DNA from: a virus
Reading direction: 5' to 3' (one strand)
Virus record (IMG/VR): IMGVR_UViG_3300018080_000252
Coordinates: 1 to 48,484 of that record
Length of the DNA stretch: 48,484 nucleotides
Shown: positions 1,662 to 25,545 of the stretch, piece after piece
Position numbering within the stretch: position 1 is the first letter of the stretch
Layout: every line of letters begins with the position of its first letter
Notes under the pieces: model-generated
Told to the model about the DNA's origin: nothing
Database searches by the model: none
What the model saw: the letters and a program-made list of their open reading frames with translations, nothing else
Made by a program: the position numbers and the translations under genes

Positions 1662-1992
1662 GGTCCACCTCCGTCACCTCTGGAGGAGGTGCGGGCGGTG
1701 GATAGACCGCTGCTTGCTGCATCATTCCGAGCGCCGCCCCCTCGACGGGACGACCCAGCTCGAACGGCCCATCGTTCAAGGCCACTGCCTTCTCCAGCTC
1801 CCGGGGATGGCTCAGATACTCCTCGAGCAGCTCGAGCAGCACACCCGAGGTCGGAATCACGAATCTCCTGCACCCGACGACCACGAGGTAGCCGTTGTCG
1901 ACGGGATAGATCAGGATGTTGTGCAGGGGCCTCGAGGCAGCCGCATGGGCCACGAGGTAGGTTTTCACCAACTCAGACACTTCATAGCTCAC
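1654..1992 (-). CDS. Hypothetical protein
   Basis: A 112-residue protein. The GTG at 1992..1990 overlaps the previous TGA (GTGA), with GAAGGAG about 8 bases before it. The first half mixes helix and strand (YEVSELVKTYLVAHAA, then YPVDNGYLVVVGCRRFVIP). The end is Pro-rich (PPPAPPPEV). No family is recognised. It sits between the candidate replication protein and the acidic coiled-coil protein in the early operon. Confidence 0.6.
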   Translation of the reverse strand: MSYEVSELVKTYLVAHAAASRPLHNILIYPVDNGYLVVVGCRRFVIPTSGVLLELLEEYLSHPRELEKAVALNDGPFELGRPVEGAALGMMQQAAVYPPPAPPPEVTEVDRG

Positions 1993-2333
1993 GTTCTGTT
2001 CTCCTTCCGGTAGGGGATCCACTTTGTGGACCAGTCATCGTTAGGCTCGAACGCCTCATCCGACACCTTGCCGCCGAGCCGCCGCATTGCGAGCAGACCC
2101 GCGTCGTGCTCGGAGAGTCCGTCGAGCTGGTAGGTCTCGGTGAGGGCCTCGAATCGCTCGCGTCGGGCGACGCTCTGGCCCCTCAACCACCACTGCAAAT
2201 CCAGTGTCCAATCTTTGGACACGGAAACCCCTTGTTTCAGGGGGGGTGAAACACGTGTTTCACGGTCTTGTTTCATCTCCTTTCCTGCCGTGAAACGCAT
2301 GACACATTGACGCGCAAGGGACTTAGAGTCCAT
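1989..2333 (-). CDS. Hypothetical protein beside the TGTTTCA repeat cluster
   Basis: A 114-residue protein. The ATG at 2333 is chosen for its AAGGGGG site; an in-frame ATG at 2372 has only weak pairing and would translate the repeats themselves. Residues about 20-38 are encoded by repeat copies at 2230-2296. The C-terminal half is Arg-, Trp- and Asp-rich and predicted helical. The position next to the primase-helicase gene and to an iteron-like cluster makes a replication role possible, but no initiator motif is seen. Confidence 0.55.
   Translation of the reverse strand: MDSKSLARQCVMRFTAGKEMKQDRETRVSPPLKQGVSVSKDWTLDLQWWLRGQSVARRERFEALTETYQLDGLSEHDAGLLAMRRLGGKVSDEAFEPNDDWSTKWIPYRKENRT
2246..2263. 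repeat. Perfect 18-bp palindrome GTGAAACACGTGTTTCAC
   Basis: Two repeat half-sites meet head to head to form a perfect 18-base palindrome centred on ACGT. Such symmetry fits a dimeric DNA-binding protein. It lies inside the coding sequence of the 114-residue gene and is part of the larger repeat cluster. Confidence 0.7.
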
Positions 2334-2386
2334 GAGACCCCCTTGTTTCACGATTTGTTTCACCTGTTTCATGCTCAGGGTGTTGT

Positions 2387-2429
2387 TGTTTCACTGTGTC
2401 AGTCTCTTTAGGACTGACACGGTGAAACA
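2387..2429. repeat. Long inverted repeat downstream of the primase-helicase gene
   Basis: Arms 2387..2404 and 2412..2429 pair over 18 bases with one mismatch around a 7-base loop (TCTTTAG). The outer 8 bases of each arm are a copy of the repeat TGTTTCAC. There is no T-run on either side, so it does not look like a simple terminator. It may be a structured origin element or a binding site. Confidence 0.65.
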
Positions 2430-2444
2430 CGGGAAATGGAAACA

Positions 2445-4166
2445 TCAGAGCCATCCCTTCTCCTCGGCCTTTTTGACGGCTCTCCAGGCGGTGGAGCGGG
2501 AGATCCCGAGCTCCTTCATCGCCTCGTTCTTGGTGAGCCCTTCCTGCATCAGGCGGGCCATCTGCTTCGCGGTGGAGGTGTCGAGGTCGAGGATCGACCA
2601 GTGCATGGAGCCGTCCGTGTAGGTCTCGAGCTTGGCCTCGAACTCGGTGAGCTGGCTCGCGTCCTCGCGCACCTTCTCGAAGCGCACCTCGAAGCGGGCG
2701 CCATCGGTGTTCCGGTAGTCGTTCGGGCGCACCAGGTGGATGACGGTGTCGAGCACATCCTCCCGACGCGAGGTGCCGCGCTGGACGCCCGTCTTCGCCG
2801 AGTGGTGGACCAGCAGCACGGCGCGGCCATCCGAGCGCAGCATGAGCAGTAGCTCCTGCATCTCGTCCCACGCCGCGGCGTCGTTCTCCTCGCCGCCGTA
2901 CAGGCAGCTCAGGTTGTCGAGGAAGATGACCTCGGGCTTGTACAGGTTGATGATGTCGCGGAAGCGGGCGCGGGCCGCGGGCGTCTTGAGTGAGGGCCGG
3001 AACTTCGGTTGTAGGTCGGGGGTGAGAACCTGGAACCAGCCGTGCTCGCAGCCCTGCGATTTGTTCGCGGCAATCTGAGCGAACCGTTTCTGGAGCATCG
3101 CGCCGGGCAGCTCGCCGTCCACGTACAGCACGCGCTGTTGCTTCGCGACCTTCCAGGCGACGCACTCCGACAAGGTGGCGATGCCGATCGCCACATCGCC
3201 GGTGAACCACGTCTTGCCGGCGCCGCGCCAGGCGTGGATCATCACGAGGTCTTGGCACCGGAGCCAGGGCTCGACGATCAGCTCTTTCTCGGGAAGCTCC
3301 ATCTGGAGGAAATCGAGCAGGTCCACGACCACCAGCTCGGGCTCATGGGAGAGCTGCTCGAGCTGCTCAGCGGTGCCGCCGGCCTGCACCCAATCGGAGA
3401 CGTCGCCCTTCGGGGGGAGGTCCGGCAGGTCCACCACCCGCACCTGCTTGGCGACGCCCTCCAGCGCCTCGAGCACGATGTTGGCGTGCTTGCGGCCCGG
3501 CTCGTCGTTGTCCGGCAGGATCGCCACCTCGGCGCCGCGCAGCGTCTCGGTGTATTGCGGGAGCCAGTTGGCGGGCTTGTCGCACGCCCCGCCACAGCAG
3601 CAGGTGGCCGTCAGGCCCAGCCGGCGCAGCGTCTCGACGTCCTTCTCGCCCTCGACCACGTACACCGTGCGGTGCTCGGCGATCGCCTTGCGGAGGTCTG
3701 GCAGGCGGTACAGGACGCGGGTGACGCCCCTCAGCGACCAGACCCAGCCTCCCGACTCGTCCTTGGTCCTCTGCCGGAACGTCTTGCCGCCGTTCATGCG
3801 GTAGCGAAGCACCTGGAAGAGCAGCCGGCCCTTCTCGTCGGTGTAGTCGTAGGTCTCCTCGGGCTCGAGCTCCTCGCGATCGGGGCACCGCCGGAGGCCG
3901 ATTACCTGGCCCTGGTAGACCGCCGTGCGCTCGAAGCCGTCAGCCTCCTCGAGCCCGAGGGCGTGCATGATGTCGGGGTAGGAGCAGTTGCGGGAGTGGC
4001 AGGCGAGGAGCACCCGCCCGTCATCGCCCCGCGACACGGTGAGCGAGTCGTAGTCCTTCCCACCGTGCGCGGGGCACTTTGCCTGATGATGGTCGCCCTT
4101 GGCCTTCGGACGGCAACCGTGGGCCTCGAGCGCCTCCAGGACGCGATCGACGGGGTTGCCCGTCAT
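2445..4166 (-). CDS. Primase-helicase (zinc finger, Toprim, RepA-like ATPase, HTH)
   Basis: A 573-residue replication protein. The ATG at 4166 overlaps the previous TGA (ATGA); the longer upstream reading is the previous gene in another frame. Domains in order: zinc-binding region at about 30-65 (CPAHGG then CHSRNC); Toprim at about 165-225 with VVEGEKD and ILPDNDEPGR, the acidic residues that hold metal for primer synthesis; P-loop ATPase with Walker A GAGKT near 315 and Walker B VIFLDN near 415; C-terminal helix-turn-helix at about 540-570 (MKELGISRSTAWRAV). It should prime and unwind phage DNA for a host polymerase, since no phage polymerase is present. The C-terminal HTH could recognise the adjacent repeat cluster; that is inference. 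Confidence 0.88.
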   Translation of the reverse strand: MTGNPVDRVLEALEAHGCRPKAKGDHHQAKCPAHGGKDYDSLTVSRGDDGRVLLACHSRNCSYPDIMHALGLEEADGFERTAVYQGQVIGLRRCPDREELEPEETYDYTDEKGRLLFQVLRYRMNGGKTFRQRTKDESGGWVWSLRGVTRVLYRLPDLRKAIAEHRTVYVVEGEKDVETLRRLGLTATCCCGGACDKPANWLPQYTETLRGAEVAILPDNDEPGRKHANIVLEALEGVAKQVRVVDLPDLPPKGDVSDWVQAGGTAEQLEQLSHEPELVVVDLLDFLQMELPEKELIVEPWLRCQDLVMIHAWRGAGKTWFTGDVAIGIATLSECVAWKVAKQQRVLYVDGELPGAMLQKRFAQIAANKSQGCEHGWFQVLTPDLQPKFRPSLKTPAARARFRDIINLYKPEVIFLDNLSCLYGGEENDAAAWDEMQELLLMLRSDGRAVLLVHHSAKTGVQRGTSRREDVLDTVIHLVRPNDYRNTDGARFEVRFEKVREDASQLTEFEAKLETYTDGSMHWSILDLDTSTAKQMARLMQEGLTKNEAMKELGISRSTAWRAVKKAEEKGWL

Positions 4167-4720
4167 CGCGCCCGCCGTCTCCAATCCACGTCGGCCCTGT
4201 AGACCGCCGCCAGCGAGGGATCCCACCGCACGGCCTTGTGCGCCGTCCACGCCGCCCGGTAGAGCTGCTCGTGCGACATCTTCGGGCGCCAGTACCCGAG
4301 CGGTGAGGCGCCCCGGTGCTCCACGATGCCGCTCACGCCGCCGTCGTCATCGGCGGGCACCCAGCCCATCGCTACGCAGAGGTCGTCGTCACCGCCGGCC
4401 TGGAGGGCCTCGACGTGCGTCATCGGCTGGCCCCACAGGATCACGACCTCGCGGCCCGTGCCCTCGCACAGCTCGCGGCAGAGCTCCAGCTCGCGCTCGG
4501 TAGGGGTTGTGGCCTTGATCTCGGTCCATACGCCGGTGTGACCGGCCACGTCCACGAGCAGGAAGTCGGGCAGGTAGTTGCCGGAGGGCAGCTCGTAGGC
4601 GTCCAGCTCGTACTCGAAGCGCAGGCCCAGCTCGTCGAAGAACGCGGCCCAGCACGCCTCGAGCTTGGAGCGGTAGAGCTGGCCCTTGTACCACGTCTCG
4701 ATGGGCTTGGCGAGCTTCAT
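4163..4720 (-). CDS. PD-(D/E)XK endonuclease
   Basis: A 185-residue protein with the layout of small phage PD-(D/E)XK nucleases: a Glu in YRSKLEACWAAFFDELG (residues about 15-32), LPDFLL near 50 and WTEIKA near 65, giving E, D and ExK for metal-dependent DNA cleavage. The first half resembles TnsA-type and related nucleases; the second half is unknown and Trp-rich. It is coupled to both neighbours by ATGA overlaps, between the Cas4-like nuclease and the primase-helicase, so a role in DNA processing is likely. Confidence 0.75.
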   Translation of the reverse strand: MKLAKPIETWYKGQLYRSKLEACWAAFFDELGLRFEYELDAYELPSGNYLPDFLLVDVAGHTGVWTEIKATTPTERELELCRELCEGTGREVVILWGQPMTHVEALQAGGDDDLCVAMGWVPADDDGGVSGIVEHRGASPLGYWRPKMSHEQLYRAAWTAHKAVRWDPSLAAVYRADVDWRRRAR

Positions 4721-9492: not shown

Positions 9493-9686
9493 GACTCGGC
9501 CTTGGGCTTGTGGGTCTGCTTCTGGATCCACTCTTCGAGGAGATCCTCGTAGATGTATCGCCGCCCTCCGATCTGGACGTAGGGAATCTCCCCATCCTTC
9601 ACCATCCGGTAGACCGTGGTGCGTCCGACGCCAAGTCGTTGAGCCACCTCGTGTTTTGCAAGAATACGACGTTGCGGTTTTGCCAT
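9489..9686 (-). CDS. Excisionase-family (HTH_17-type) DNA-binding protein
   Basis: A 65-residue protein with the classic excisionase-type HTH: LAKHEVAQRLGVGRTTVYRMVKDGEIPYVQIGGRRYI followed by a helix LLEEWI. It is the first gene of the leftward operon. No Shine-Dalgarno precedes the ATG; instead the -10 box lies 6 bases upstream, so the transcript is probably leaderless. Candidates are an excisionase acting with the integrase, or a Cro-like regulator of the switch. The divergent repressor gene supports a regulatory position. Confidence 0.75.
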   Translation of the reverse strand: MAKPQRRILAKHEVAQRLGVGRTTVYRMVKDGEIPYVQIGGRRYIYEDLLEEWIQKQTHKPKAES

Positions 9687-9691
9687 AAGGC

Positions 9692-9768
9692 AAATGTAGC
9701 ACCACGTTTCAGATGTGTCAATAGCTGCGCGTAGATGTCTCACTACGTTGCACTTTGACCGCAAATGT
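9692..9768. promoter_or_regulatory. Candidate operator repeats of the lysis-lysogeny switch
   Basis: Four copies of a short word A(A/G)ATGT start at 9692, 9711, 9733 and 9763, between and within the two divergent promoters. The two central copies extend to 14 bases (9711..9724 and 9733..9746) with 11 matches and lie 22 bases apart, about two helical turns. The first overlaps the leftward -10 box, the second the leftward -35 box and the fourth the rightward spacer. They are plausible repressor sites. Confidence 0.5.
9693..9721 (-). promoter_or_regulatory. Leftward early promoter
   Basis: Minus strand: TTGACA (9716..9721), a 17-base spacer, then TACATT (9693..9698). The start codon of the excisionase-type gene begins 6 bases after the -10 box, so transcription should start at or next to the A of the ATG. 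Confidence 0.82.
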
Positions 9769-9783
9769 GCTATTTTGTAGAAT
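9755..9783 (+). promoter_or_regulatory. Promoter of the repressor operon
   Basis: Plus strand: TTGACC (9755..9760), a 17-base spacer, then TAGAAT (9778..9783). It points at the repressor gene, leaving an untranslated leader of roughly 87 bases (about 9790 to 9876) in which no other gene is seen. Confidence 0.8.
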
Positions 9784-9876
9784 CGCGCCCTTAGAATGTC
9801 CGTTGACCTGGGGCGTGGTACTTCGATTTTTTCTTGCAGGAGTGGCCGCGCTTGAGTATCGAGGCAGGGAGGTCCG

Positions 9877-12069: not shown

Positions 12070-12117
12070 TGGCGGGGCCGAAGGGACTCGAACCCTCGAC
12101 CTCCGGCGTGACAGGCC
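12070..12117 (-). other. Candidate attP core: 3' fragment of a tRNA-Asp gene
   Basis: On the minus strand this reads as the 3' part of a tRNA: anticodon arm with loop CTGTCAC (anticodon GTC, Asp), variable region, TpsiC arm with GGTTCGAGTCC, and a terminal CCA (12070..12072). No matching D arm or 5' acceptor strand is present, so it is not a functional tRNA. Phages that integrate into tRNA genes carry exactly such a fragment to rebuild the gene. It lies next to the integrase and between arm-type repeats. Confidence 0.82.
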
Positions 12118-12252
12118 GATGGCTGGTGCTGTGCCATCAAGCACTTCCTGTTGAGACTACAACGGATCCTACAACAAAAAAGGCGCCGCCCCGGGTGGGA
12201 GGTGGCCCGGAGCGGCTAAGGAGGAAGGAGGAGAGTCGCGTCAGTTCAGAGC

Positions 12253-12301
12253 GTGTCCTGGACCGTGTCCCGACCGTGTCCGGGCGTGTCCAGGCGTGTC
12301 C
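12253..12301 (+). repeat. Five phased CGTGTCC repeats near attP
   Basis: GTGTCC, each preceded by C, starts at 12253, 12265, 12276, 12286 and 12296, steps of 12, 11, 10 and 10 bases, close to one DNA turn. The remaining bases of the noncoding stretch 12176-12366 show no gene. Sites on one face of the helix suggest cooperative binding, perhaps by the excisionase-type protein or by a regulator. Confidence 0.65.
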
Positions 12302-12312
12302 CAATTGGGGAT

Positions 12313-12336
12313 CTGCACTTTCCGTGCAGAGTGCAG
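12313..12336. repeat. Overlapping inverted repeats
   Basis: CTGCAC (12313..12318) pairs with GTGCAG at 12324..12329 or with the adjacent GTGCAG at 12331..12336. There is no T-tract on either strand, so a terminator is unlikely. It lies between the phased repeats and the end of the holin gene. Confidence 0.4.
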
Positions 12337-12366
12337 AAATCGCTTCCCGCGGTGGCACCGTACCCG

Positions 12367-12942
12367 CTACCCATGGGTCGTGCCTTTCTGGCTGGGGATT
12401 TCCGAGCGCAGTGTCGCCAGATGCTCGGCGATCTGCTCCGTCTTGAGCTTGCTGCCCTGGGAGGAGCCGAAGAAGAAGTTGTACGCCTTGCCGACCAGCT
12501 CGAGGAGACCGCCGGTCAGCACGCCGAAGAGGTACGCCTGCGCCTCGGTCATGTCCGATATGACTGTGAACGCGACCACCACCGTCACCAGCGCCCCCAT
12601 GGCGATGTAGGTGAGCCGCGCCGGCTCCTTGTCCTGGACCCTCTCGTGCCGCTCCCGGGCGCTCTGCACGTCGGAGAGGTACATCTGCTCACGCGAGATC
12701 CGCAGGCGCTCGCGCTCGAGCTCCACCTGGGCGTCCAGCTCGCGGAGCCTGAAGAGATCCTCGGGCCGCGCCTCGGCGATCTGGGCGAGGATCTGGTCGT
12801 CGGAGAGGTCGTTCTCCCCGAGCAAGCCCTTCGCGATGCCGAGGACGATCGGGGCGTAGGGGCCGCTGAGGGCCGCTGCCGCCGCCGGCGCGATCCCCTT
12901 GAGGACGGGGAGGGCCTTTTTCAAGATATTCTTGAGAGGCAT
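12367..12942 (-). CDS. Holin of the 3TM type
   Basis: A 191-residue protein. The N-terminus is hydrophobic (LKGIAPAAAAALSGPYAPIVLGIAKGLLG). A long Arg/Glu-rich helix follows at about 65-108, then two membrane helices (YIAMGALVTVVVAFTVIS; YLFGVLTGGLLELVGKAYNFFF) and a polar tail. This layout fits the three-membrane-span holin family associated with gene-transfer agents and many phages. It is the last gene of the late operon, after amidase and a secreted protein, as expected of a lysis cassette. GGGAGA precedes the ATG. Confidence 0.75.
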   Translation of the reverse strand: MPLKNILKKALPVLKGIAPAAAAALSGPYAPIVLGIAKGLLGENDLSDDQILAQIAEARPEDLFRLRELDAQVELERERLRISREQMYLSDVQSARERHERVQDKEPARLTYIAMGALVTVVVAFTVISDMTEAQAYLFGVLTGGLLELVGKAYNFFFGSSQGSKLKTEQIAEHLATLRSEIPSQKGTTHG

Positions 12943-15870: not shown

Positions 15871-18800
15871 CTAGAAGGCCGACTTCCCGGACCAGCTTTG
15901 ATACCAGATGAGCGCATCCCTGAGCAGCTCTTGGTCGCTCTTGGAGAGGCCCGCCATGAACGCGCCGCGGTGCTGCTTCGGGATGGTGTAGAGGGGGTGT
16001 TGCGTGCGGAGGCTCTGCTCGAGGCCCTTGGGGCTACCGCCCTCTTTGAAGTATTCGTTGAGCCACTTCGCGGCGCGTTTCTCATCGCCCCACATGAGTG
16101 CCTTCCGGTAGTAGTAGAGGGCATTGGAGCGGGCGCTGCGATGCAGGATCACCGGCGATGTCTTGTTGAGATGCTCCTCGGCCCACTTCGACGCCTCATG
16201 CCGGATGGCCCAATACGACGCCTCGCGGGGGTCCGTGCGGTAGACGAGGAGCGGTTCAACCCACCGTGCGGCTTTCTGCCAGCCCGTCAGGTCGGTGGTG
16301 CGGCGGGGCTTGCCCATCACTACGTTGTAGAGCTTGTCCAGGCCGGCCCAGCCGCCGAACGTGCGGACGACGTGCTCAGTGCGGTCGCGGATCGGGCGGG
16401 GCCTGAGCCCGCGACGTCCCTCGCCGAAGATGGACGGGTAGGTGGAGAAGCCGCCGATCAGCTCGAACGGCGTCTTGATGAAGGGCTGCACCCCGTTGAT
16501 GGTCCGGTCGGCGGCACCCTTCGGGATCTCGGCCACCTTGTCGCGCCAGTCGGCCCGGCCCGTGACGAGATCCTCGACGTCGTTGGGCCAGTCCGAGAGC
16601 CCGACCCACTTGAGCGCATCGAACAGCGCCCCCTCGAACCGGATCGCGTGGATCTCGCCGGTCTCGTCGTTCCTGCCGAGGATGACGTGTAGACCGCGGC
16701 GGGTGCGCCGGATCTCGCGCTCCTCGTCGGGGAAAAGCGTCATGTTCCACAGCCACACCAGCCCGCTCACGATGTGGGCCTGGAGCACGCGGCGCCCTAC
16801 GCGCTTGAGCACCTTGCCGCCGACCTTCTTGGTCGCGACGCCGGCGACGCGCTTGCCGGTGGCCCACGGATCGCCGCCTTCCTCGTACTGGAGATTCTTG
16901 AAGAGCCGGACGTAGCGCGGTGCGTTGATCTCGGCCCAGCTCCAGAACGAGAAGAGGTTCTCGCGGAGCCACATGCCGCCCCGGGAGATGGCGCCGTAGT
17001 CGCCGACGAGGTCGCGAGCGAGCTTCGCGGCGCGGCGCTTGCCCGTCAGCGGCGCGACCTCATCGACCCGGGAGACGCCGGCGCCCTTGTACTTCTCGGA
17101 GCCGAGGACGCGCTCCTTCATGCGCCGGTAGGCGGCGAGCCGGAGGATGTTCTCCCTCCAGACCGTGAACTCGCGGACGTTCTTCCAGTAGCGATCGACC
17201 AGGTCCACGAACTTGTTGGGATCCTCGTTGATGAGCGCCTTGAAGGCCCCACTCTTCGAGATGTCGGGAATGTCGGTCATGGTCAGCCCGGAGTCGATGA
17301 CGCCGAACTCCATCGCCTCGTCGATCTCCTCCTGGACCGGCTTCGGGACGCGCTCGCCCTTGACGTGGTAGCGCCACAGGTCGCCGGCGGCGTCCTTGAA
17401 ATACTTCATGATCTGCGGATCGAAGGCCACGCAGATGTCCGCGTCGCCGCTCATGTTGTTGAGGTTGTACTTCATGGCGCGGGTCGGTCCGAGGAGCACC
17501 GTCTGCTTCCATGTGGAGTGCGCCCAGCGGAACAGGTTGTCCATCGGGTCGTCGATGTACTTGTGGAACTCGTCGAGCGTCTTGGCGAGATCCTCGGGGA
17601 TCACCCACTGCGGGCGCATCCCACCGATGGCGAGCACTGTGTGGACCTGCTCGGGGGTCAGCTCGATCTCGCCGTCGAGGATCCGCTGCATGGCGCGCTC
17701 CTCGATCGTGAGCGCCCGGAAGACGTTCGCGCCCTGCTTCGGCTGCCAGGCAACGTAGCCCTCGGGGATGAGGTTCTCCCACGTCAGGTAGTCGTTGCCG
17801 AGCCGGTCCTTGATGAAGCGGTTCTTCTCGTTGACCGCCTTCAAGAACGCGAGCGCCGGCACCTGCGGCGGCATCGCGTCGGCGTCGGCCTCGGTGAGCG
17901 GAATGCCGAACATCTCCTTGAACTCGGCGTCGGCCACCTCCTTGCCGTGCTCGACGAGCCACTTCAAGTAGCCGAAGAACCGCTCCGGCTCGGGATCCTC
18001 GTAATCCGGCGTGATGAACTTGTCCTCGGCTGCGCCGCGGAGGGCCTTGCCCTCGGCCAGGTAGCCCAGCACGTCGGGATAGGGACCGGCGGGGAGATTG
18101 CCTGCCGCGGCCTGGTCCTCGAGGAACCGCTTCATCTCGCCGATCCGATGCCTGTAGGGAATGAGCGGGTCGAGCTCTCCCAGCTCGGTCGCCCGGGCGT
18201 CGAGGATAGGTCTGACGTCGCTGGCCCCGTTCCTGATCTCCTCCCTGAGCGCGGCGATCTCGTTCCTCAGCTCGTGGATCCGGGCGAGGTTCTCCGGCCC
18301 GCCGACGAGGTTGACGTAGTTGCGGTGACGGGCCTCGGCGTTGAGCCGGCCCTTGATGTTTGCCAGCTCGTCGAGACGGTCGAGCGTGCGCTTCCGGGCG
18401 ATCGCCGCTGCGGCCTGCGACGCCCACTCCAGCTCGGCCTCCTGGTAGGCGGTGTTGAAGTCGGTGCCGCCGACGCGACGCTTCATGAAGCCCTTCGTGT
18501 GGATCCGCACGTCGGTCGAGCCGGTGCCGACCCACTGCCGTTCCCGGGCGTTGAAGTGCTTCATCACCTGGCGGTGGTAGTAGCGCGGGTCCGCGAGCAC
18601 GTCGGCGTCGAGGATTTCCAGCTCGACGAGCTCCTCCGTCAGCCCGCGGACGTAGCGGGCGCGGCGGTCCAGCGCGGCGCGGACGTGGGAATTGGCCGCG
18701 ACGATGCGCTCCAGGCGCTCGAGGTGCTGCGTGATGTCGGTCTCGGGAGCGTTGTCGCCGAAGCGGGGGTGCGTGTACCCGAAGGGCAGCGGCTTGCCCT

Positions 18801-21800
18801 CGCCCTCCGTTGCGGTGTCGTAGAGCCCGGCCTCCACGTCCTTGATGATGTCGGGGAGGACGATGACGCGGGAGAACAGGTCGAGCGCCTGGCCGTCGAG
18901 CCCCTCCGTGATCTCGCGGATGCGGATGTAGGTGATCGGCTTCGCGGCGCGCTCCGCGGCCTCGAGCGTGCGGAGCTCGTCCTGCATGAGCGCTCGCATC
19001 GAGTCCTTCCCGACGTCGATGTGCGGGTAGTGCCGCCGGAAGATGATGGACGCGCTGGCGAGGAGCTTCTTCATCTCGGCGACCTTGCCCTCGCTCTGGA
19101 GGCCTTTCGCCGCCTGGAACCGCTCCTCGATCTTCGGGTCGTCGGCCTTCACCGCCTCCGGGATCTCGAGCTTGCGGAGGGGCTTCCTGGGCTGGCCGAG
19201 TTTGCGGAGGTTGTCGAGCACGGTGATGAAGGGATCCTTCGCCGTCTCGATCAGCTTCATGTCGTCGGCGCTCTCGGTGACGTCGTTGCCGAACACCTCG
19301 TCCGTCTTCTTCTCGAGGTTGACGGTGCCATCCCAGCGGTTGCCCGCGGTGGCCCTCACCCCGGCGATCGCCACCTGCTCATTGCCGCGCCACAGGCCGA
19401 CGAAGTTGGCGTTCTCTGGATTGAAGCGGATCGTGTCAAAGCCGGTCACGTCCTCCAGGAACCGCCACTGATCGAGGGAGAACGTGAACTCGGAGATGAT
19501 GGCGCCGTTCTCCGTCTCGATGATCGGCTCCATCTGATCGGCGTGCAGTGACCACCGCCAGCCGCGCAGATGGGCACGGGTGCCGTCCTTGTTGGCGTGG
19601 TCCTTCCAGAGCTTCTCGAGCTGCGCCTTGGTGGGGATATTGTGTTTGGGGTCGCTGGTCGTGACCTTGATCTCGTTCTTCACATTCGCGGGAGCGTTCT
19701 CGAGGACCGCCTTCTTGGGGATCAGGAAGTGGCCGTTGGTGTACCAATCCCCCTCGACGTCGAGGCCCGCGTCCTTGCCCATCCACGCCGCCTTGGGGCT
19801 GTAGGACAGCGGCGCCGGCGAGAGCTGGCCGTAGCGCTTCCGGGTCTCCGGCCTGCCGGCCTCGCCCGCAGCGCGTCTCATGCCGGGGAACCCCGACGAC
19901 ATCGTGTGTGCGGTCAGCTTGTTCGAGGACGATGCCTCATCGCGCTCGATCGGCTTGTCGGCGAGCGTGTAGAAGAGATCGCGGGCACCCTCAGAGCCCA
20001 TGGTGTAGATGCCGTCGCCGGGGATCTGGAGCCGGAGCGTGGCCGTGGCGTCGTCCTTGATCTTGGGCCAGTTCTCTTTGAGCTGCTCGATGATCCATGC
20101 TTCCTGCTGCTTCGTAAAGCCGAACCTCTTGACGTCCACCTCGTGCTCGACCTGACTGACCGCCGCACGCGCATCCGCGTTGGGGACCACGTCGATCAGG
20201 CCGATGGGCTTCCGAAGGTCGGGGCGCGCCGTGACGCCGATGCGCTTGATGCGCTCGAGGCTTTCCTTCGCGGCCTCCTCGGTGAAGTACGCCTGTGCCT
20301 CGGCGGGGTCGCGGGTCAGCCCGAAGTGCTTGAACTCGGGATTGAGCGCGTTCTCGAGTGAGGCGTGGTCCTCGCCGTGGAACGTGCCGTCCGGCCACTG
20401 GATGAAGTATCGCGCACCCGTCGCATGGATGAGCCCCTGCTTCTTCGGATCGTCGGGGTGGCGGAACTTCGCCAGCTCATGCGCCTCGACCGTGATGATC
20501 TCCGGCGTCCCCGACGACTCCGGCGTCTTGTGGCCGCGGGTGGTGGGGCGCTCGGCGTCGGGCTTCTTGGGCTCGGGCTTGGGCTTTTCGGCGAGAGGCT
20601 CCTCAGCGGCAGGCGCGGGTGCCTCCTCGGCCTTGGGCTTGTCGATGACAACGATCCGCGAGACGACGCCCGTCTTCCGTAGCTCGTGCTCCTTGAATGA
20701 GCCCTCGGGGAGCTTCTCCGACGTGCCGTCTACCTCCTCGAGCCACGAACGGAATGACCTGGACTCGTAGTCCTCTCGGAAGAAGGGGCCTTCGCTCATG
20801 ATGGAGACGACGCGACCCCCAGGCTTCAAGAGCCTGTAGGCGTGCTGGACGTGCTTGATGTCCTGGCCCTTTTCGAAAGGTGGGTTCATGACGATCTTGT
20901 CGTATCCTTCGACGCTGTACTCGAGGAAATCGCGGTGGGTGACGTCATAGCCCTTGTCAATCAGGATCTTCGCCAATTCACTGTTGAATTCGACGATATC
21001 GACATTGCCCTTCTGGCCCTTACCTGCGCCAGCGGCCACCATCGCATCGGCGAGATCCCCTTTCCCTGCGGATGGCTCGAGCACTCGATCGGTGCTCTTG
21101 ATGTCCGCTCTCTCGAGCATCTTCGTGATGACCGAGCGGGGCGTCGGAAAGAACCCGGGGATCTTCCGACCGGCGAGTGCCAGCTCGGCCTTCTTGCCCT
21201 CTGAGACTCCCTTGGCCTCGGAGCGGATATCGAGCAGCTCCTCGAGCGCGGCGCGGAGATCCTCGGTCGATTCGATGCCAAGCCGATGCAGGCGCTTGAT
21301 GTGCGCTACGTCCGATTGGAGCATCGCAGTGTCGCTTTTCAGGAGCTTTGCCGTGTCCTCCATCTCGTCAAGCCATGCCTCGTCGAGTCGCACCCAATCC
21401 TCACCGGCTCTTACAGCATGGTTCTGCCACGACTTCACGAGCTGTTTCGCTCGGACAATCTGGCCTCTCGGCACCTGCTTCTTCTCGAGCATCTCGCTCA
21501 ATTCTCTGGCGATATAGCGGGCGTTGTGCCCGTACATCTTCGGCCATGGGAATGTCGCGTGCTCAAGGTCGGATTCGTTCGGAGCCCGGCTGCGGATCTC
21601 CTCGCGGGCGGCTCTCTCGTCTGCTGGCAGCGATCTCTCGTGCTCGATGTTGGCGTGTCGCAGCTCCTTTTCCAGCGCCTCGACAGCGGCCTTCGTCTTC
21701 ACGTTGGCGAGCTTGGTCTTCTCCCCCGACTCGAGCTTGTCGGCGACGGCCTGCATCGTCTTGGCGAGGGCCTGGTCTGCGTAGGCGCTCTCCATGGCGC

Positions 21801-24800
21801 TCTCGGCTTGCCTCGCATACCTGGCGGTGTGCGTCTTCCGCGGTTGGTCGAGCGCCTCCTGCGCCTTGCTGGCGAGTTTCTTGGCCTGGGAACGAAGAGC
21901 TTTCGCGGCGGCGATGCGCTTCTTGTCCACTCGCGGCGGTGCCGCTGACGGCTTCTCAGGCGGCAGAACTGTGATCCCGGCCTTCCACAGCTCACGAATC
22001 GTGCCGGGTCCAGCGGGGCCGGCGAACTCGATCCGCTCCTCCCTGGTCAGCTCGCGGACATCGCCGCGACGGTGGAAGGTGTACCCTGCCTTCTCGATCT
22101 GCTCGACCACGCCTCCCGAAAGCTCACCCACCGCCGTCTTCCGCGGGGATTCCGCCTCCGTTTCCGGCTTCGTCTCCTTCGGTGCCGCCTTCTCAGCAAC
22201 CGGCGCAGGAACTCCCTCTGTGGTGCCAGAAACCACCTCCAGCTCGTCGTAGGGGATCCAGACCTTGGCACCGCCCTCGCCGTCGATGATGGCGGTCGGC
22301 TTACCTCCGGGCTTGATGGTGTACTTGTAGGGGCCTTGCTGGCCGGTGCCCTTGTGGCGGATGATCGTGCCCTTGGTCAGCTCGGGAGGCTCCTTCGCGG
22401 GGGCCTCTGGCGGGGCAACGTGCGCGACCGCGTCCTCATGCACTTTCCTGGCGTTGTCATAGACGTTGAACCTCTTGAGGGCGGTGACGTTCCCGGAGTC
22501 AAGGTCGATGACCCGGACGAAGCCCTGCTTGCCGCGGGCTGCCTTGTACAGCTCGTAGCGGACGCCGTCGATCGTCTGGACGTCGGCGACGATCGCATCC
22601 GACCCCATGACTCGGGCAGCATCACCGACATTCAGCTCTTCCGGCGCTTCTTTAACGCCTTCCGCACGGCCTTCTCGAGCTTGTGGTGCCTCCCCACGGG
22701 GTTGCTCGGGTGCTTCGCGTTGTAGATCCTCGCGGCCTTCGCCTGCGCCGCGTCGTAGCTCATCCCCTCCTCGCGGACGAACCTGTCCCTCATCGCCTCG
22801 TAGACCTTCGGCATCGGGGGCCTCCTTCTTCTCTGCCGCCAGCATGCGCTCGAGAAGCTCTGCGGCAGCCTTATCGGCAGCCTCATCAGTCCGCACCTTC
22901 CCCTCGGAGCCTGTGGGGTAAACCCTGGTGTGGAGATGGTGCCCTTGCGCGAGTAGACGCTCCATTTCTTCCCGAACACGAGCTGCGATATCCGGGCGAC
23001 CCTTGGCAATCCAGAAACGATGACTCTTCTCGAAGTTCTCGACCGTGCCGAATCCCTTGAGATACAGCCGGGCTTGCTCCTGCGTTAGGACTCGCGCCGC
23101 CTCTTCCGGGGACAAGGCGAATAGCTTTCTGTACCACTCCTGATCTGCTTCGTAATGCCTATTTGAGGCTTCTAGGTCGAAGTCCGGGTCATTCGGGTCG
23201 GTAGTATGAGGAGGCGACTCGGGGCGCGGCGGGAATGTGCTGACCGCCTCTACTTCCGCCCGAGGAACTGGAGCACCTTCGCCTTCAGCGACGGGCTCGG
23301 CTGCGGCTGCCGCGGCAGGACCTCCAGCTTGACCGGGGGGTTCCCCAGCTCGCGAAGCCTCTCGAACCAAGTCGATAGGCTCTCGCCCTTTCGGCGCTCG
23401 TAGTCCTTCTTGCTCCCGCTGCCGCTTGTGCTCGTGCCCGGCCTGGCTGGCCCTGTCATAGTCTCCTCCAACTCCATGCGAGATCGCCGGCGTGGCCGTC
23501 AGAATGGTGCCATCCTTCAAGGTAACTCTGAGCTGGCGCTCTTGCAATCTCTTGTTGAGCCTGTCTGCGAACTCCTGCGCGTCCTGTTCCGAAGGGAAAC
23601 GGCCTGCGAACTCGTCACCGCCGTACCGCGTAACGGTTCGGACGCGATCGCCCATCTCTTCTCGGATTGCCGCGGACTCCTCCGCGATGACACCGAGGAG
23701 CTTGTCGCCCTCAGCCTCAGAGACGTGGTCGTTCCACCATCCGAGACTGTCAACGTCGTACCACAGGGTGATGTCGTCGGGAGCCTCATGTTCGGCTTCG
23801 ACGTAGGCTCGGCGATTGCCGATCTCTATACCGTGCTGATCGCGGATTCGATCGTCCACGAGCAGCTCGCGCTTCGCTTCCTCCTCCGACATCTCGGCTA
23901 CGCGCCGCCGCCGAACGAGATCGACCCGACGTTCCTCGGGGATTGCCTCCGGCTGCGCCCCCTGCGGCTCCTGTGGCTTGGCAAACTCAGCCGCGGGCTC
24001 TGCGGGTGCTGGGGGACGCTCGGGGGCTTCGGACGATCCTGGGGCTTTCTGAGCCGTTTCCGGCAAGGCGGCGTTGAGCAGCTCCCGCGCCTCCTCGCGG
24101 CCCTGGACATTGAGCAGGTTGCGGACCTCGTTGATGGTGGGGCGCCGTCCAAGGTCGTCGGCCATGCGACGGATGCGCTCGCCCTGCGTCGGCTCACCCT
24201 CGGTCTCCATCGCCTCGAGCAACTCGGCGCGGCGCTCGGCCTGCGGCCTGCGCTGCTCCTCGGCCTGGCGGGTGATCTCGCGTTCACGCTCCAGCTTCGC
24301 GGCTTGGGCCTGCTCGGTCTCGGCCCGGACCTGCTCCGCTTCGGTGCGAAGTGCCTGCGCGGTGGCCGTGTCCTTGGGAAGCATCCTGCCGGCGATCTCG
24401 GCTTCGACCTCGAGATCCGGCGGCGGCTCACGCCTCTTCCACATGCTGATGATGCGGTCGGCGGTCTTCCAGTCGTCGCCCTCGATCGCCCGCTGGAGCT
24501 CCTTGACGTACTCCTCCCGCATGATGCGCTCGGCGTTGTTGGGGCCGGCGCGGTCGGGGTGCATGTCGATGAGCGCCTCGCGGTAGACCTTTGCCTTGTC
24601 CGCTGCCGCCTTCGGGTTGAAACCCTGGGAACGCAGCGTCCTCGTCAGGAAGCCGAACAGCTTCCCGGCTGCATGGAGAGCGAGGATGCCGGCAGCGGAC
24701 TCCGCGAAGCCCTTGGCGGCTTCCGCGGGCTCGCCCTTCTCGATGCCGGCGCCTGCGCCCATGGCGCCGAACTGCGTCGCCGCCGCACCCGTGCGGGCGA

Positions 24801-25545
24801 TCTGAGCGGCCTCCTTCGCGACGGCCTCCGCGGCCTTGCGCTCCATGCCGCGGGCCATGGCCTTCGTGAGCACGCGCTCGAAGACCTGCTTGGCGAGGGG
24901 CAGCGACACACCGCCCGCGGTCGCGACCTCCGCGGCCACGTAGGGAGCCGCCTCGACCCCGAACCCGGCGACCTTCCCGGCGATGTCCCCGACGCCTGCT
25001 GCACCTCCACGCACCTCGCCACCACCGAGACGATGGCCCAGCCCCATGCGTTGGAGCAGCTCGTGGACGCCCTCGCGGCCCTTCGCCAGCGCGTCACTGA
25101 CGGGCGTGGGCTGATCGCCCGGGAGGAGCTGCTCGGAGAAGAATTCGCCGAGGAGGGGTGCGGCAAGCGCGAAGTCCACGCCGGAGTAGAGGAGATGCGT
25201 CACGCCCTGTGCGAGGGAACCGGCTGCTTTCTGACCCGCAGACGGGAGCGGCCCCATGGACGGGCGATCGCCGATCTCCTCGTCGGTGAGGGGCTTGGTT
25301 CGGGATGGAGGCTCGGCCTGGATATCTGGCACCGTTTCGGTGGACGCTCCGGTAGTCATCGGCCCCATACGCTCCTGCGACGGCGGGACGCGCATCGCGG
25401 GCGTGCCTGCCGGCTGCGCCTCGACCATGCCGCCGCCGAGATTGACCTTGAGCCAGTGCTCGTCGGAGACACGCCGCACCACCTCGTCGGGGGTGCCGTC
25501 CGGGAACCGGATCACGTCGCCGTTGGGGAAGCGGACCTCAGCCAT
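15871..25545 (-). CDS. Giant polyvalent / ejection protein with DnaJ-like, GGDEF and adenine methyltransferase domains
   Basis: A 3224-residue protein, one fifth of the genome, with its start on a shared TGATG. Visible regions in order: an N-terminal PNGDVIRFPDGTPDEVVRRV segment; an Ala/Gly-rich hydrophobic region at about 190-290; a DnaJ-like segment with HPDR near 328; a Glu/Arg coiled coil at about 380-480; a GGDEF domain at about 570-700 with GNRRAY, YDVDS, GDKLL and RYGGDEF near 640; an Arg/Glu-rich linker; an adenine-specific methyltransferase at about 1455-1640 with PSAGKGD and NPPF; several unknown domains; and a C-terminal helical part at about 2250-3200. Such polyvalent proteins are thought to enter the cell with phage DNA and counter host defences, as P1 DarB does. 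The methyltransferase stretch is visibly less GC-rich than the ends. Confidence 0.85.
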   Translation of the reverse strand: MAEVRFPNGDVIRFPDGTPDEVVRRVSDEHWLKVNLGGGMVEAQPAGTPAMRVPPSQERMGPMTTGASTETVPDIQAEPPSRTKPLTDEEIGDRPSMGPLPSAGQKAAGSLAQGVTHLLYSGVDFALAAPLLGEFFSEQLLPGDQPTPVSDALAKGREGVHELLQRMGLGHRLGGGEVRGGAAGVGDIAGKVAGFGVEAAPYVAAEVATAGGVSLPLAKQVFERVLTKAMARGMERKAAEAVAKEAAQIARTGAAATQFGAMGAGAGIEKGEPAEAAKGFAESAAGILALHAAGKLFGFLTRTLRSQGFNPKAAADKAKVYREALIDMHPDRAGPNNAERIMREEYVKELQRAIEGDDWKTADRIISMWKRREPPPDLEVEAEIAGRMLPKDTATAQALRTEAEQVRAETEQAQAAKLEREREITRQAEEQRRPQAERRAELLEAMETEGEPTQGERIRRMADDLGRRPTINEVRNLLNVQGREEARELLNAALPETAQKAPGSSEAPERPPAPAEPAAEFAKPQEPQGAQPEAIPEERRVDLVRRRRVAEMSEEEAKRELLVDDRIRDQHGIEIGNRRAYVEAEHEAPDDITLWYDVDSLGWWNDHVSEAEGDKLLGVIAEESAAIREEMGDRVRTVTRYGGDEFAGRFPSEQDAQEFADRLNKRLQERQLRVTLKDGTILTATPAISHGVGGDYDRASQAGHEHKRQREQEGLRAPKGREPIDLVREASRAGEPPGQAGGPAAAAAAEPVAEGEGAPVPRAEVEAVSTFPPRPESPPHTTDPNDPDFDLEASNRHYEADQEWYRKLFALSPEEAARVLTQEQARLYLKGFGTVENFEKSHRFWIAKGRPDIAARVREEMERLLAQGHHLHTRVYPTGSEGKVRTDEAADKAAAELLERMLAAEKKEAPDAEGLRGDEGQVRPRGGDELRRGAGEGREDLQREAPEQPRGEAPQAREGRAEGVKEAPEELNVGDAARVMGSDAIVADVQTIDGVRYELYKAARGKQGFVRVIDLDSGNVTALKRFNVYDNARKVHEDAVAHVAPPEAPAKEPPELTKGTIIRHKGTGQQGPYKYTIKPGGKPTAIIDGEGGAKVWIPYDELEVVSGTTEGVPAPVAEKAAPKETKPETEAESPRKTAVGELSGGVVEQIEKAGYTFHRRGDVRELTREERIEFAGPAGPGTIRELWKAGITVLPPEKPSAAPPRVDKKRIAAAKALRSQAKKLASKAQEALDQPRKTHTARYARQAESAMESAYADQALAKTMQAVADKLESGEKTKLANVKTKAAVEALEKELRHANIEHERSLPADERAAREEIRSRAPNESDLEHATFPWPKMYGHNARYIARELSEMLEKKQVPRGQIVRAKQLVKSWQNHAVRAGEDWVRLDEAWLDEMEDTAKLLKSDTAMLQSDVAHIKRLHRLGIESTEDLRAALEELLDIRSEAKGVSEGKKAELALAGRKIPGFFPTPRSVITKMLERADIKSTDRVLEPSAGKGDLADAMVAAGAGKGQKGNVDIVEFNSELAKILIDKGYDVTHRDFLEYSVEGYDKIVMNPPFEKGQDIKHVQHAYRLLKPGGRVVSIMSEGPFFREDYESRSFRSWLEEVDGTSEKLPEGSFKEHELRKTGVVSRIVVIDKPKAEEAPAPAAEEPLAEKPKPEPKKPDAERPTTRGHKTPESSGTPEIITVEAHELAKFRHPDDPKKQGLIHATGARYFIQWPDGTFHGEDHASLENALNPEFKHFGLTRDPAEAQAYFTEEAAKESLERIKRIGVTARPDLRKPIGLIDVVPNADARAAVSQVEHEVDVKRFGFTKQQEAWIIEQLKENWPKIKDDATATLRLQIPGDGIYTMGSEGARDLFYTLADKPIERDEASSSNKLTAHTMSSGFPGMRRAAGEAGRPETRKRYGQLSPAPLSYSPKAAWMGKDAGLDVEGDWYTNGHFLIPKKAVLENAPANVKNEIKVTTSDPKHNIPTKAQLEKLWKDHANKDGTRAHLRGWRWSLHADQMEPIIETENGAIISEFTFSLDQWRFLEDVTGFDTIRFNPENANFVGLWRGNEQVAIAGVRATAGNRWDGTVNLEKKTDEVFGNDVTESADDMKLIETAKDPFITVLDNLRKLGQPRKPLRKLEIPEAVKADDPKIEERFQAAKGLQSEGKVAEMKKLLASASIIFRRHYPHIDVGKDSMRALMQDELRTLEAAERAAKPITYIRIREITEGLDGQALDLFSRVIVLPDIIKDVEAGLYDTATEGEGKPLPFGYTHPRFGDNAPETDITQHLERLERIVAANSHVRAALDRRARYVRGLTEELVELEILDADVLADPRYYHRQVMKHFNARERQWVGTGSTDVRIHTKGFMKRRVGGTDFNTAYQEAELEWASQAAAAIARKRTLDRLDELANIKGRLNAEARHRNYVNLVGGPENLARIHELRNEIAALREEIRNGASDVRPILDARATELGELDPLIPYRHRIGEMKRFLEDQAAAGNLPAGPYPDVLGYLAEGKALRGAAEDKFITPDYEDPEPERFFGYLKWLVEHGKEVADAEFKEMFGIPLTEADADAMPPQVPALAFLKAVNEKNRFIKDRLGNDYLTWENLIPEGYVAWQPKQGANVFRALTIEERAMQRILDGEIELTPEQVHTVLAIGGMRPQWVIPEDLAKTLDEFHKYIDDPMDNLFRWAHSTWKQTVLLGPTRAMKYNLNNMSGDADICVAFDPQIMKYFKDAAGDLWRYHVKGERVPKPVQEEIDEAMEFGVIDSGLTMTDIPDISKSGAFKALINEDPNKFVDLVDRYWKNVREFTVWRENILRLAAYRRMKERVLGSEKYKGAGVSRVDEVAPLTGKRRAAKLARDLVGDYGAISRGGMWLRENLFSFWSWAEINAPRYVRLFKNLQYEEGGDPWATGKRVAGVATKKVGGKVLKRVGRRVLQAHIVSGLVWLWNMTLFPDEEREIRRTRRGLHVILGRNDETGEIHAIRFEGALFDALKWVGLSDWPNDVEDLVTGRADWRDKVAEIPKGAADRTINGVQPFIKTPFELIGGFSTYPSIFGEGRRGLRPRPIRDRTEHVVRTFGGWAGLDKLYNVVMGKPRRTTDLTGWQKAARWVEPLLVYRTDPREASYWAIRHEASKWAEEHLNKTSPVILHRSARSNALYYYRKALMWGDEKRAAKWLNEYFKEGGSPKGLEQSLRTQHPLYTIPKQHRGAFMAGLSKSDQELLRDALIWYQSWSGKSAF

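Follow-up and report, generated by a model that had tools for sequence, protein, structure and literature searches.

In the present study, the whole of a 48,484-base IMG/VR virus record, linear and possibly a fragment, was analysed and is called the window. The genes examined lie on its minus strand and are those for terminase, portal, major head protein, a Sak4-like annealing protein, an exonuclease, and a primase-helicase. A single open frame of 3224 residues (15871-25545, minus strand) takes up a fifth of the phage genome. The features at the 3' end of the primase-helicase gene are listed in Table 1. The AlphaFold2 model of this protein has a mean pLDDT of 85.5, and its best PDB fold matches include Twinkle 7t8b, T7 gp4 5ikn, and RSF1010 RepA 1g8y (TM 0.77 by target). 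The helix-turn-helix (HTH) that a first-pass annotation had placed at the C-terminus was confirmed by Pfam and by the model, where residues 531-569 form three helices with a block pLDDT of 83-95. This HTH_23 match and three-helix unit give the helicase a C-terminal DNA-binding domain, as in initiators of the SaPI Rep and P4 alpha type. The core is an AAA_25 RecA fold and not the D5/SF3 or VapE-like AAA+ core of that helicase family.

Table 1. Features at the primase-helicase locus of the window, and helicases of other viral contigs with a cluster of the same word
Feature	Position	Strand	Details
Primase-helicase, 573 aa	2445..4166	-	zinc-ribbon-like N-terminus, Toprim primase, RecA-fold AAA_25 helicase, C-terminal HTH
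C-terminal helix-turn-helix, residues 531-569, proposed iteron reader	2460..2576	-	Pfam HTH_23 E 7e-6; AlphaFold2 model
Intergenic iteron cluster, candidate replication origin	2223..2444	none	222-bp gap directly 3' of primase-helicase gene
Exact TGTTTCA copies	2233+, 2247-, 2256+, 2269+, 2344+, 2356+, 2365+, 2387+, 2423-
Iteron set A	2233..2297	none	2233+, 2247-, 2256+, 2269+, 2291- (one mismatch)
Iteron set B	2344..2444	none	2344+, 2356+, 2365+, 2387+, 2423-, 2438- (one mismatch)
Perfect 18-bp palindrome GTGAAACACGTGTTTCAC	2246..2263	none	two iterons pointing outwards
Stem-loop from two inverted iterons	2387..2429	-	18-nt arms (2387-2404 / 2412-2429), 7-nt loop
Next gene (probable)	1989..2222	-	77 aa, GTG start after AAGGGG; longer frame to 2333 or 2372 crosses iterons without coding character
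Helicases with 3' TGTTTCA cluster			L084 DnaB/AAA_25; L039, L067 AAA_25; L072 Cch-type; L117 DUF3987
Helicases with 3' TGTTTCA cluster			L080, L052 DUF5906/D5-like; look-alikes L113, L033

Directly past the primase-helicase gene, nine exact copies of TGTTTCA/TGAAACA are found in both orientations within 2233-2429, and two more in the rest of the window. The counts in the first-pass annotation, nine exact copies and one partial copy, were reproduced, the tenth being TGAAACG at 2291-2297 with one mismatch, and an eleventh, also with one mismatch, was added (GGAAACA at 2438-2444). This last copy adjoins the stop codon, in agreement with the claim that the cluster touches the end of the gene. The perfect 18-bp palindrome noted earlier is likewise present. 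Equal frequency of the word elsewhere had been named as grounds for refutation, and the count across the window showed no such frequency. In whole-window dinucleotide shuffles, TGTTTCA occurred 1.4 times on average and 5 times at most, and in 5000 dinucleotide shuffles of 2223-2444 the top 7-mer of any sequence reached no more than 4 copies, compared with the 9 observed. The TGTTTCA cluster also ranked first in a de novo 7-mer scan of the contig in 250-bp windows, the next word having 5 copies. The next-densest 7-mer clusters are those of CGTGTCC and CAGCTCG (5 copies each within 250 bp, window 12101-12500 and 4401-4700). The extended consensus on the primase-helicase strand is (g)TGAAACA(a/c). 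The GC content of the cluster is 48-50%, among the lowest in the contig and compared with 66% for the genome, and no pronounced A+T-rich melting stretch was found between iteron sets A and B. The lowest-GC 150-bp stretch of the contig, at about 9651-9800 (45% GC), is not associated with the TGTTTCA repeat.

The cluster had been described as partly overlapping a reading frame, a description that did not hold. Across the frame 1989-2372, which runs over the cluster, coding character is lost (codon score -0.2, GC3 0.49), and it is regained at about 2220 (codon score 0.2 to 0.38, GC3 0.80); therefore, the cluster is intergenic and lies in a gap of 222 bp. The true next gene is thus probably the 77-residue frame, starting downstream of the cluster, and not the 114-residue protein with a start at 2333 that had been annotated. 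The 127-residue frame showed no similarity to known proteins.

Regular, helically phased direct repeats are a trait of plasmid iterons, and P4-type origins also use both orientations. The iterons in the present study are irregularly spaced (9 to 75 bp) and of mixed orientation. Two other traits of iteron origins were found, namely a short word clustered beyond chance within about 200-300 bp (nine exact copies) and a location at the gene of the putative cognate initiator, where the cluster abuts the primase-helicase stop and the position recurs in relatives. We therefore propose that the cluster works like an iteron-type origin and do not assign it to the plasmid iteron type.

In a scan of viral contigs for TGTTTCA, genes for helicases of several families were followed directly at their 3' ends by clusters of mixed orientation (Table 1). 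The same word was seen 3' of helicases of different families at L072:1088-1291, L084:6012-6219, L080:5641-5847, and L113:6148-6354, and its sharing among Cch-type, DnaB/AAA_25, and D5-like helicases may reflect convergence or sampling by a chosen word. Dense TGTTTCA clusters were also seen near terminase large subunit genes and not near a helicase, at L036:3470-3656, L047:5122-5364 (13 copies), and L076:3399-3522. In a control scan, the reversed word too was clustered, 8 bp past the 3' end of a VapE-type helicase gene. This result indicates that the word is not the common factor, and the relatives of the primase-helicase were therefore collected without reference to repeats. The idea that TGTTTCA is conserved as the target of a host protein was rejected on the basis of this control cluster and of the varying words in the de novo counts. 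The reversed word gave 45 matches, compared with at least 120 for TGTTTCA, an excess that we leave uninterpreted because coding repeats and parS-like arrays account for many of the TGTTTCA matches.

For each relative, the commonest 7-mer was counted de novo in windows placed around the gene. Among relatives on viral contigs, at least 4 copies were observed in 28 of 76 windows at the stop codon (the studied window included), compared with about 0-6% away from it, and 26 of 75 flanks carried a cluster, compared with 0.3 expected from shuffles. Bacterial-genome contigs, collected with the same query alignment as the viral-contig set, gave 27 of 78 at the stop and mostly 0-5% away; these loci could represent proviruses, plasmids, or phage contigs placed in the wrong bin. 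When the sets were pooled into 207 non-redundant genes, 51 of 203 stop-codon windows held some 7-mer at least 5 times, compared with 0-3 windows per about 200 away from the gene end. Since exact 7-mer counting misses degenerate repeats, clusters are at least as common among the relatives as these shares show. With the primase-helicase as the only query, no relative turned up on viral contigs, and among the terminase relatives at 39-50% identity none had a detectable relative of the primase-helicase or of the repeat.

The position past the primase-helicase gene is conserved, and the word is not. Words private to lineages include CGCAACA, CGGGACA, CGGACAA, TGGCACA, GGAACCA, TGGACCA, GTGTAAA, and TCGCGCA, among others. 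The same layout is found in cultured phages, including Rhizobium phages 16-3 (CGTGACA, 14 copies) and RHph_Y3_1 (GTTCCCA, 9 copies), Idiomarinaceae phage 1N2-2 (CGGTACA, 8 copies), and Microbacterium phage OneinaGillian (GTCACAC, 6 copies), and also in Wolbachia phage WO, with five copies. In Microbacterium phage Hyperion, six copies of TGTCACA lie within the 3' end of the gene. Clusters were absent from Arthrobacter phages Tank and Pointis, which have no C-terminal extension, and from phages Mae-JY30 and Viceroy.

This diversity of words bears on another reading, in which the array is a centromere or ParB-type loading site that a host or phage ParB binds for partition. The sequence TGTTTCAC is the half-site of the chromosomal parS TGTTTCACGTGAAACA, so that each exact C-flanked copy equals a parS half-site; moreover, some other phage contigs with the same word (L003, L058, L060, L066, and L075) carry arrays of 3-4 copies each of the perfect parS 16-mer. 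Such arrays may serve the partition of a phage or plasmid, or act as decoys for host ParB. However, the 16-mer was not found in the window with up to 3 mismatches, the half-sites of the sole palindrome point outward, the reverse of the chromosomal parS arrangement, and no ParB_N or HTH_ParB domain was detected in the window. In addition, the unrelated words at the same place in relatives would be unreadable by host ParB. On these grounds the parS/ParB reading, which we regard as extremely improbable, was rejected.

Clusters of at least 4 copies were found in 75 of 157 proteins with at least 105 residues beyond AAA_25 and in 0 of 40 shorter ones (Fisher p = 4e-10), although the short group is partly one clade and does not represent 40 independent events. 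By 7-mer count, the remaining 82 of the 157 long-C-terminal relatives had no cluster. With C-terminal similarity taken over the last 110 residues, the mean word match was 3.6/7 at a similarity below 0.1 and 6.3/7 above 0.4. The partial correlation of word with C-terminus given the core was 0.25 (36 loci, permutation p < 0.001), compared with 0.03 for the core given the C-terminus. With 54 loci and a stricter definition of the core, these values were 0.14 (permutation p < 0.001) and 0.12 (p = 0.02), respectively, and after removal of close pairs the word/C-terminus value was 0.06-0.07, which is marginal (p about 0.04-0.05). These results suggest that word similarity modestly follows C-terminal similarity.

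Individual loci show this relation more clearly. The two nearest relatives of the C-terminal HTH have 12 copies of GGAAACT (L275) and 9 copies of AGGAAAC (L278), which have GAAAC in common with TGAAACA. In the chlamydial and Dependentiae relatives that have a TKSQVETRKKKAKE-like helix, paired TTTCCGAT/ATCGGAAA-like repeats lie straight after the stop, and relatives with the same HTH type and other helices have the words TGGACCA, GTGTAAA, TGCACCA, or GTCGCAC. In bins including those of Chlamydiae and Dependentiae (L267-L273 and L276), the relatives have their TTTCCGAT-like repeats arranged as a compact inverted pair just past the primase-helicase stop, and these loci may be phages of intracellular bacteria.

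Inverted copies also occur in the window, where two of them form a strong stem-loop at 2387-2429 (RNA fold -25.3 kcal/mol, z -5.2). The stem, situated after the primase-helicase gene, might serve termination or processing, which would make the remaining copies incidental, or it might be a stem-loop origin of the kind found in pRN1, a plasmid of related plan that depends on a stem-loop downstream of its replication gene (PMC4234260). The compact inverted pair directly past the stop codon in the chlamydial relatives is also in keeping with a hairpin. However, there is no U tract after the stem, the stem holds only 2 of the 11 copies, and L275, L278, L312, L344, and phage 16-3 carry 9-14 copies, mostly in mixed orientation, none of which a terminator needs. 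The only match found on searching for intrinsic terminators lies on the other strand and is no more than expected by chance. Termination as the main function was rejected for lack of a U tract and because of too many copies, and the hairpin explanation as a whole appears very unlikely.

The cluster lies between two co-directional genes, which would also suit operators or an element that controls copy number. Binding by the primase-helicase, or by some other regulator of the phage, would then autoregulate the transcript or restrain initiation in the way P4 alpha acts at crr, with replication starting elsewhere. In P4 the same iterons are present at both an origin and a control site, and an operator or copy-control function would predict the same binding data as origin reading. 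Nevertheless, no promoter-like site was found in 1900-2700, the clusters lie 3' of the helicase gene across families and not at a promoter, and the window holds no second TGTTTCA cluster, though the contig may be incomplete, so that a second site may exist. As a replacement for an origin this explanation is unlikely, if less so than the hairpin; an operator or copy-control role could exist alongside origin function.

Thus, the cluster is quite likely the replication origin of the phage, forming a self-contained initiator replicon read by the C-terminal HTH of the primase-helicase. The observations behind this proposal were computed directly: the cluster, its position, the family-wide recurrence at that position, the restriction to proteins with a C-terminal extension, and the modest link between word and C-terminus. 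The iteron-origin arrangement recognised in the first-pass annotation is accordingly favoured by sequence comparison, including the stop-codon peak, the variation of words with the C-terminal domain, and the cultured phages. The GC skew that it had suggested examining changes only weakly at 2.2 kb, and is uninformative on the origin. Herein, we infer binding, melting, helicase loading, and origin activity as follows. First, the C-terminal HTH would bind the GTGAAACA word, present in two sets and both orientations just past its own gene. Second, the RecA-fold ring would assemble on the locally A+T-rich repeats, open the region, and unwind it. Third, the Toprim domain would lay the primers. Because the site adjoins the gene, initiator and site would travel together, and each lineage would have diverged to its own word.

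Extending this proposal, a large family of phage primase-helicases with Toprim and RecA-fold domains might be autonomous initiators, with swappable C-terminal HTH or winged-helix tails that read private words of 7-8 bp, each repeated immediately 3' of its own gene. We lean slightly towards this generalisation. Hardly any uncultivated phage has a known replication origin, and if the rule holds, the origin could be located simply from the sequence where the primase-helicase gene ends. The helicase itself would then be the initiator, and the pairs of tail and word would provide a natural data set for a recognition code describing how short HTH domains choose their DNA. In addition, the self-initiating plan of SaPI and P4 would be extended to the T7 gp4/Twinkle class, in which sequence-specific origin binding by the helicase is not usually expected. 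A Toprim primase-helicase with its own 3' iterons was not found described in the open-licence PubMed Central literature, which is weak evidence, as most subscription journals lie outside that scope.

Several known systems share parts of this layout. The plan of a Toprim domain joined to a RecA ring is that of T7 gp4 and Twinkle. T7 gp4 and RSF1010 RepA are not known to have a C-terminal origin-reading HTH or private 3' iterons, and RSF1010 has a separate initiator, RepC. The ori1 and crr sites of P4 alpha resemble the cluster in having short iterons in both orientations, and the P4 type I iteron, GGTGAACA, is close to GGTGAAACA; this likeness is probably due to chance, because the relatives have other words. 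P4 alpha has another type of primase and an SF3 helicase, whereas the phage protein has Toprim and RecA-fold domains. Primase, helicase, and origin recognition are combined in P4 alpha in one polypeptide (Ziegelin et al. 1993, cited in PMC8965321). For the O protein of phage lambda and the replisome organisers of TP901-1 and Tuc2009, the origin repeats are located at the gene of the binding protein (PMC8965321, PMC11447400). These are separate initiators that recruit a helicase and have the repeats inside their own gene; in contrast, the helicase is here the proposed reader and the repeats lie past the stop codon, except in Hyperion, whose gene contains them at its 3' end.

Further parallels are found in mobile elements. 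SaPI Rep and SCCmec Cch2 use their C-terminal DNA-binding domain to bind iterons that directly follow their own gene, a biochemical precedent from other helicase families, and in Cch and Cch2 this domain binds direct repeats in the region downstream (PMC7581432). The gene of a Cch-type helicase in our scan (L072) is even followed by the same TGTTTCA word, although the SCCmec proteins differ from the phage protein in belonging to another helicase family, in their integrated cassette, and in having a separate primase. In the PICIs of Gram-negative bacteria, two iteron sets flank a putative melting site (PMC6092414). Compared with SaPI Rep and the PICI pri-rep-ori, the present locus differs in the RecA-fold Toprim-AAA_25 helicase, in the Toprim primase carried on the same protein, in the lack of a clear A+T-rich stretch between the two sets, and in being part of a tailed phage with terminase, portal, and capsid genes. 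It is like them in having an initiator helicase, a C-terminal domain, and iterons past the gene, with words that differ between elements (PMC7581432, PMC6092414). By analogy, this layout suggests that the primase-helicase works on the plan of SaPI Rep, Cch2, and P4 alpha, though it stands outside their helicase families.
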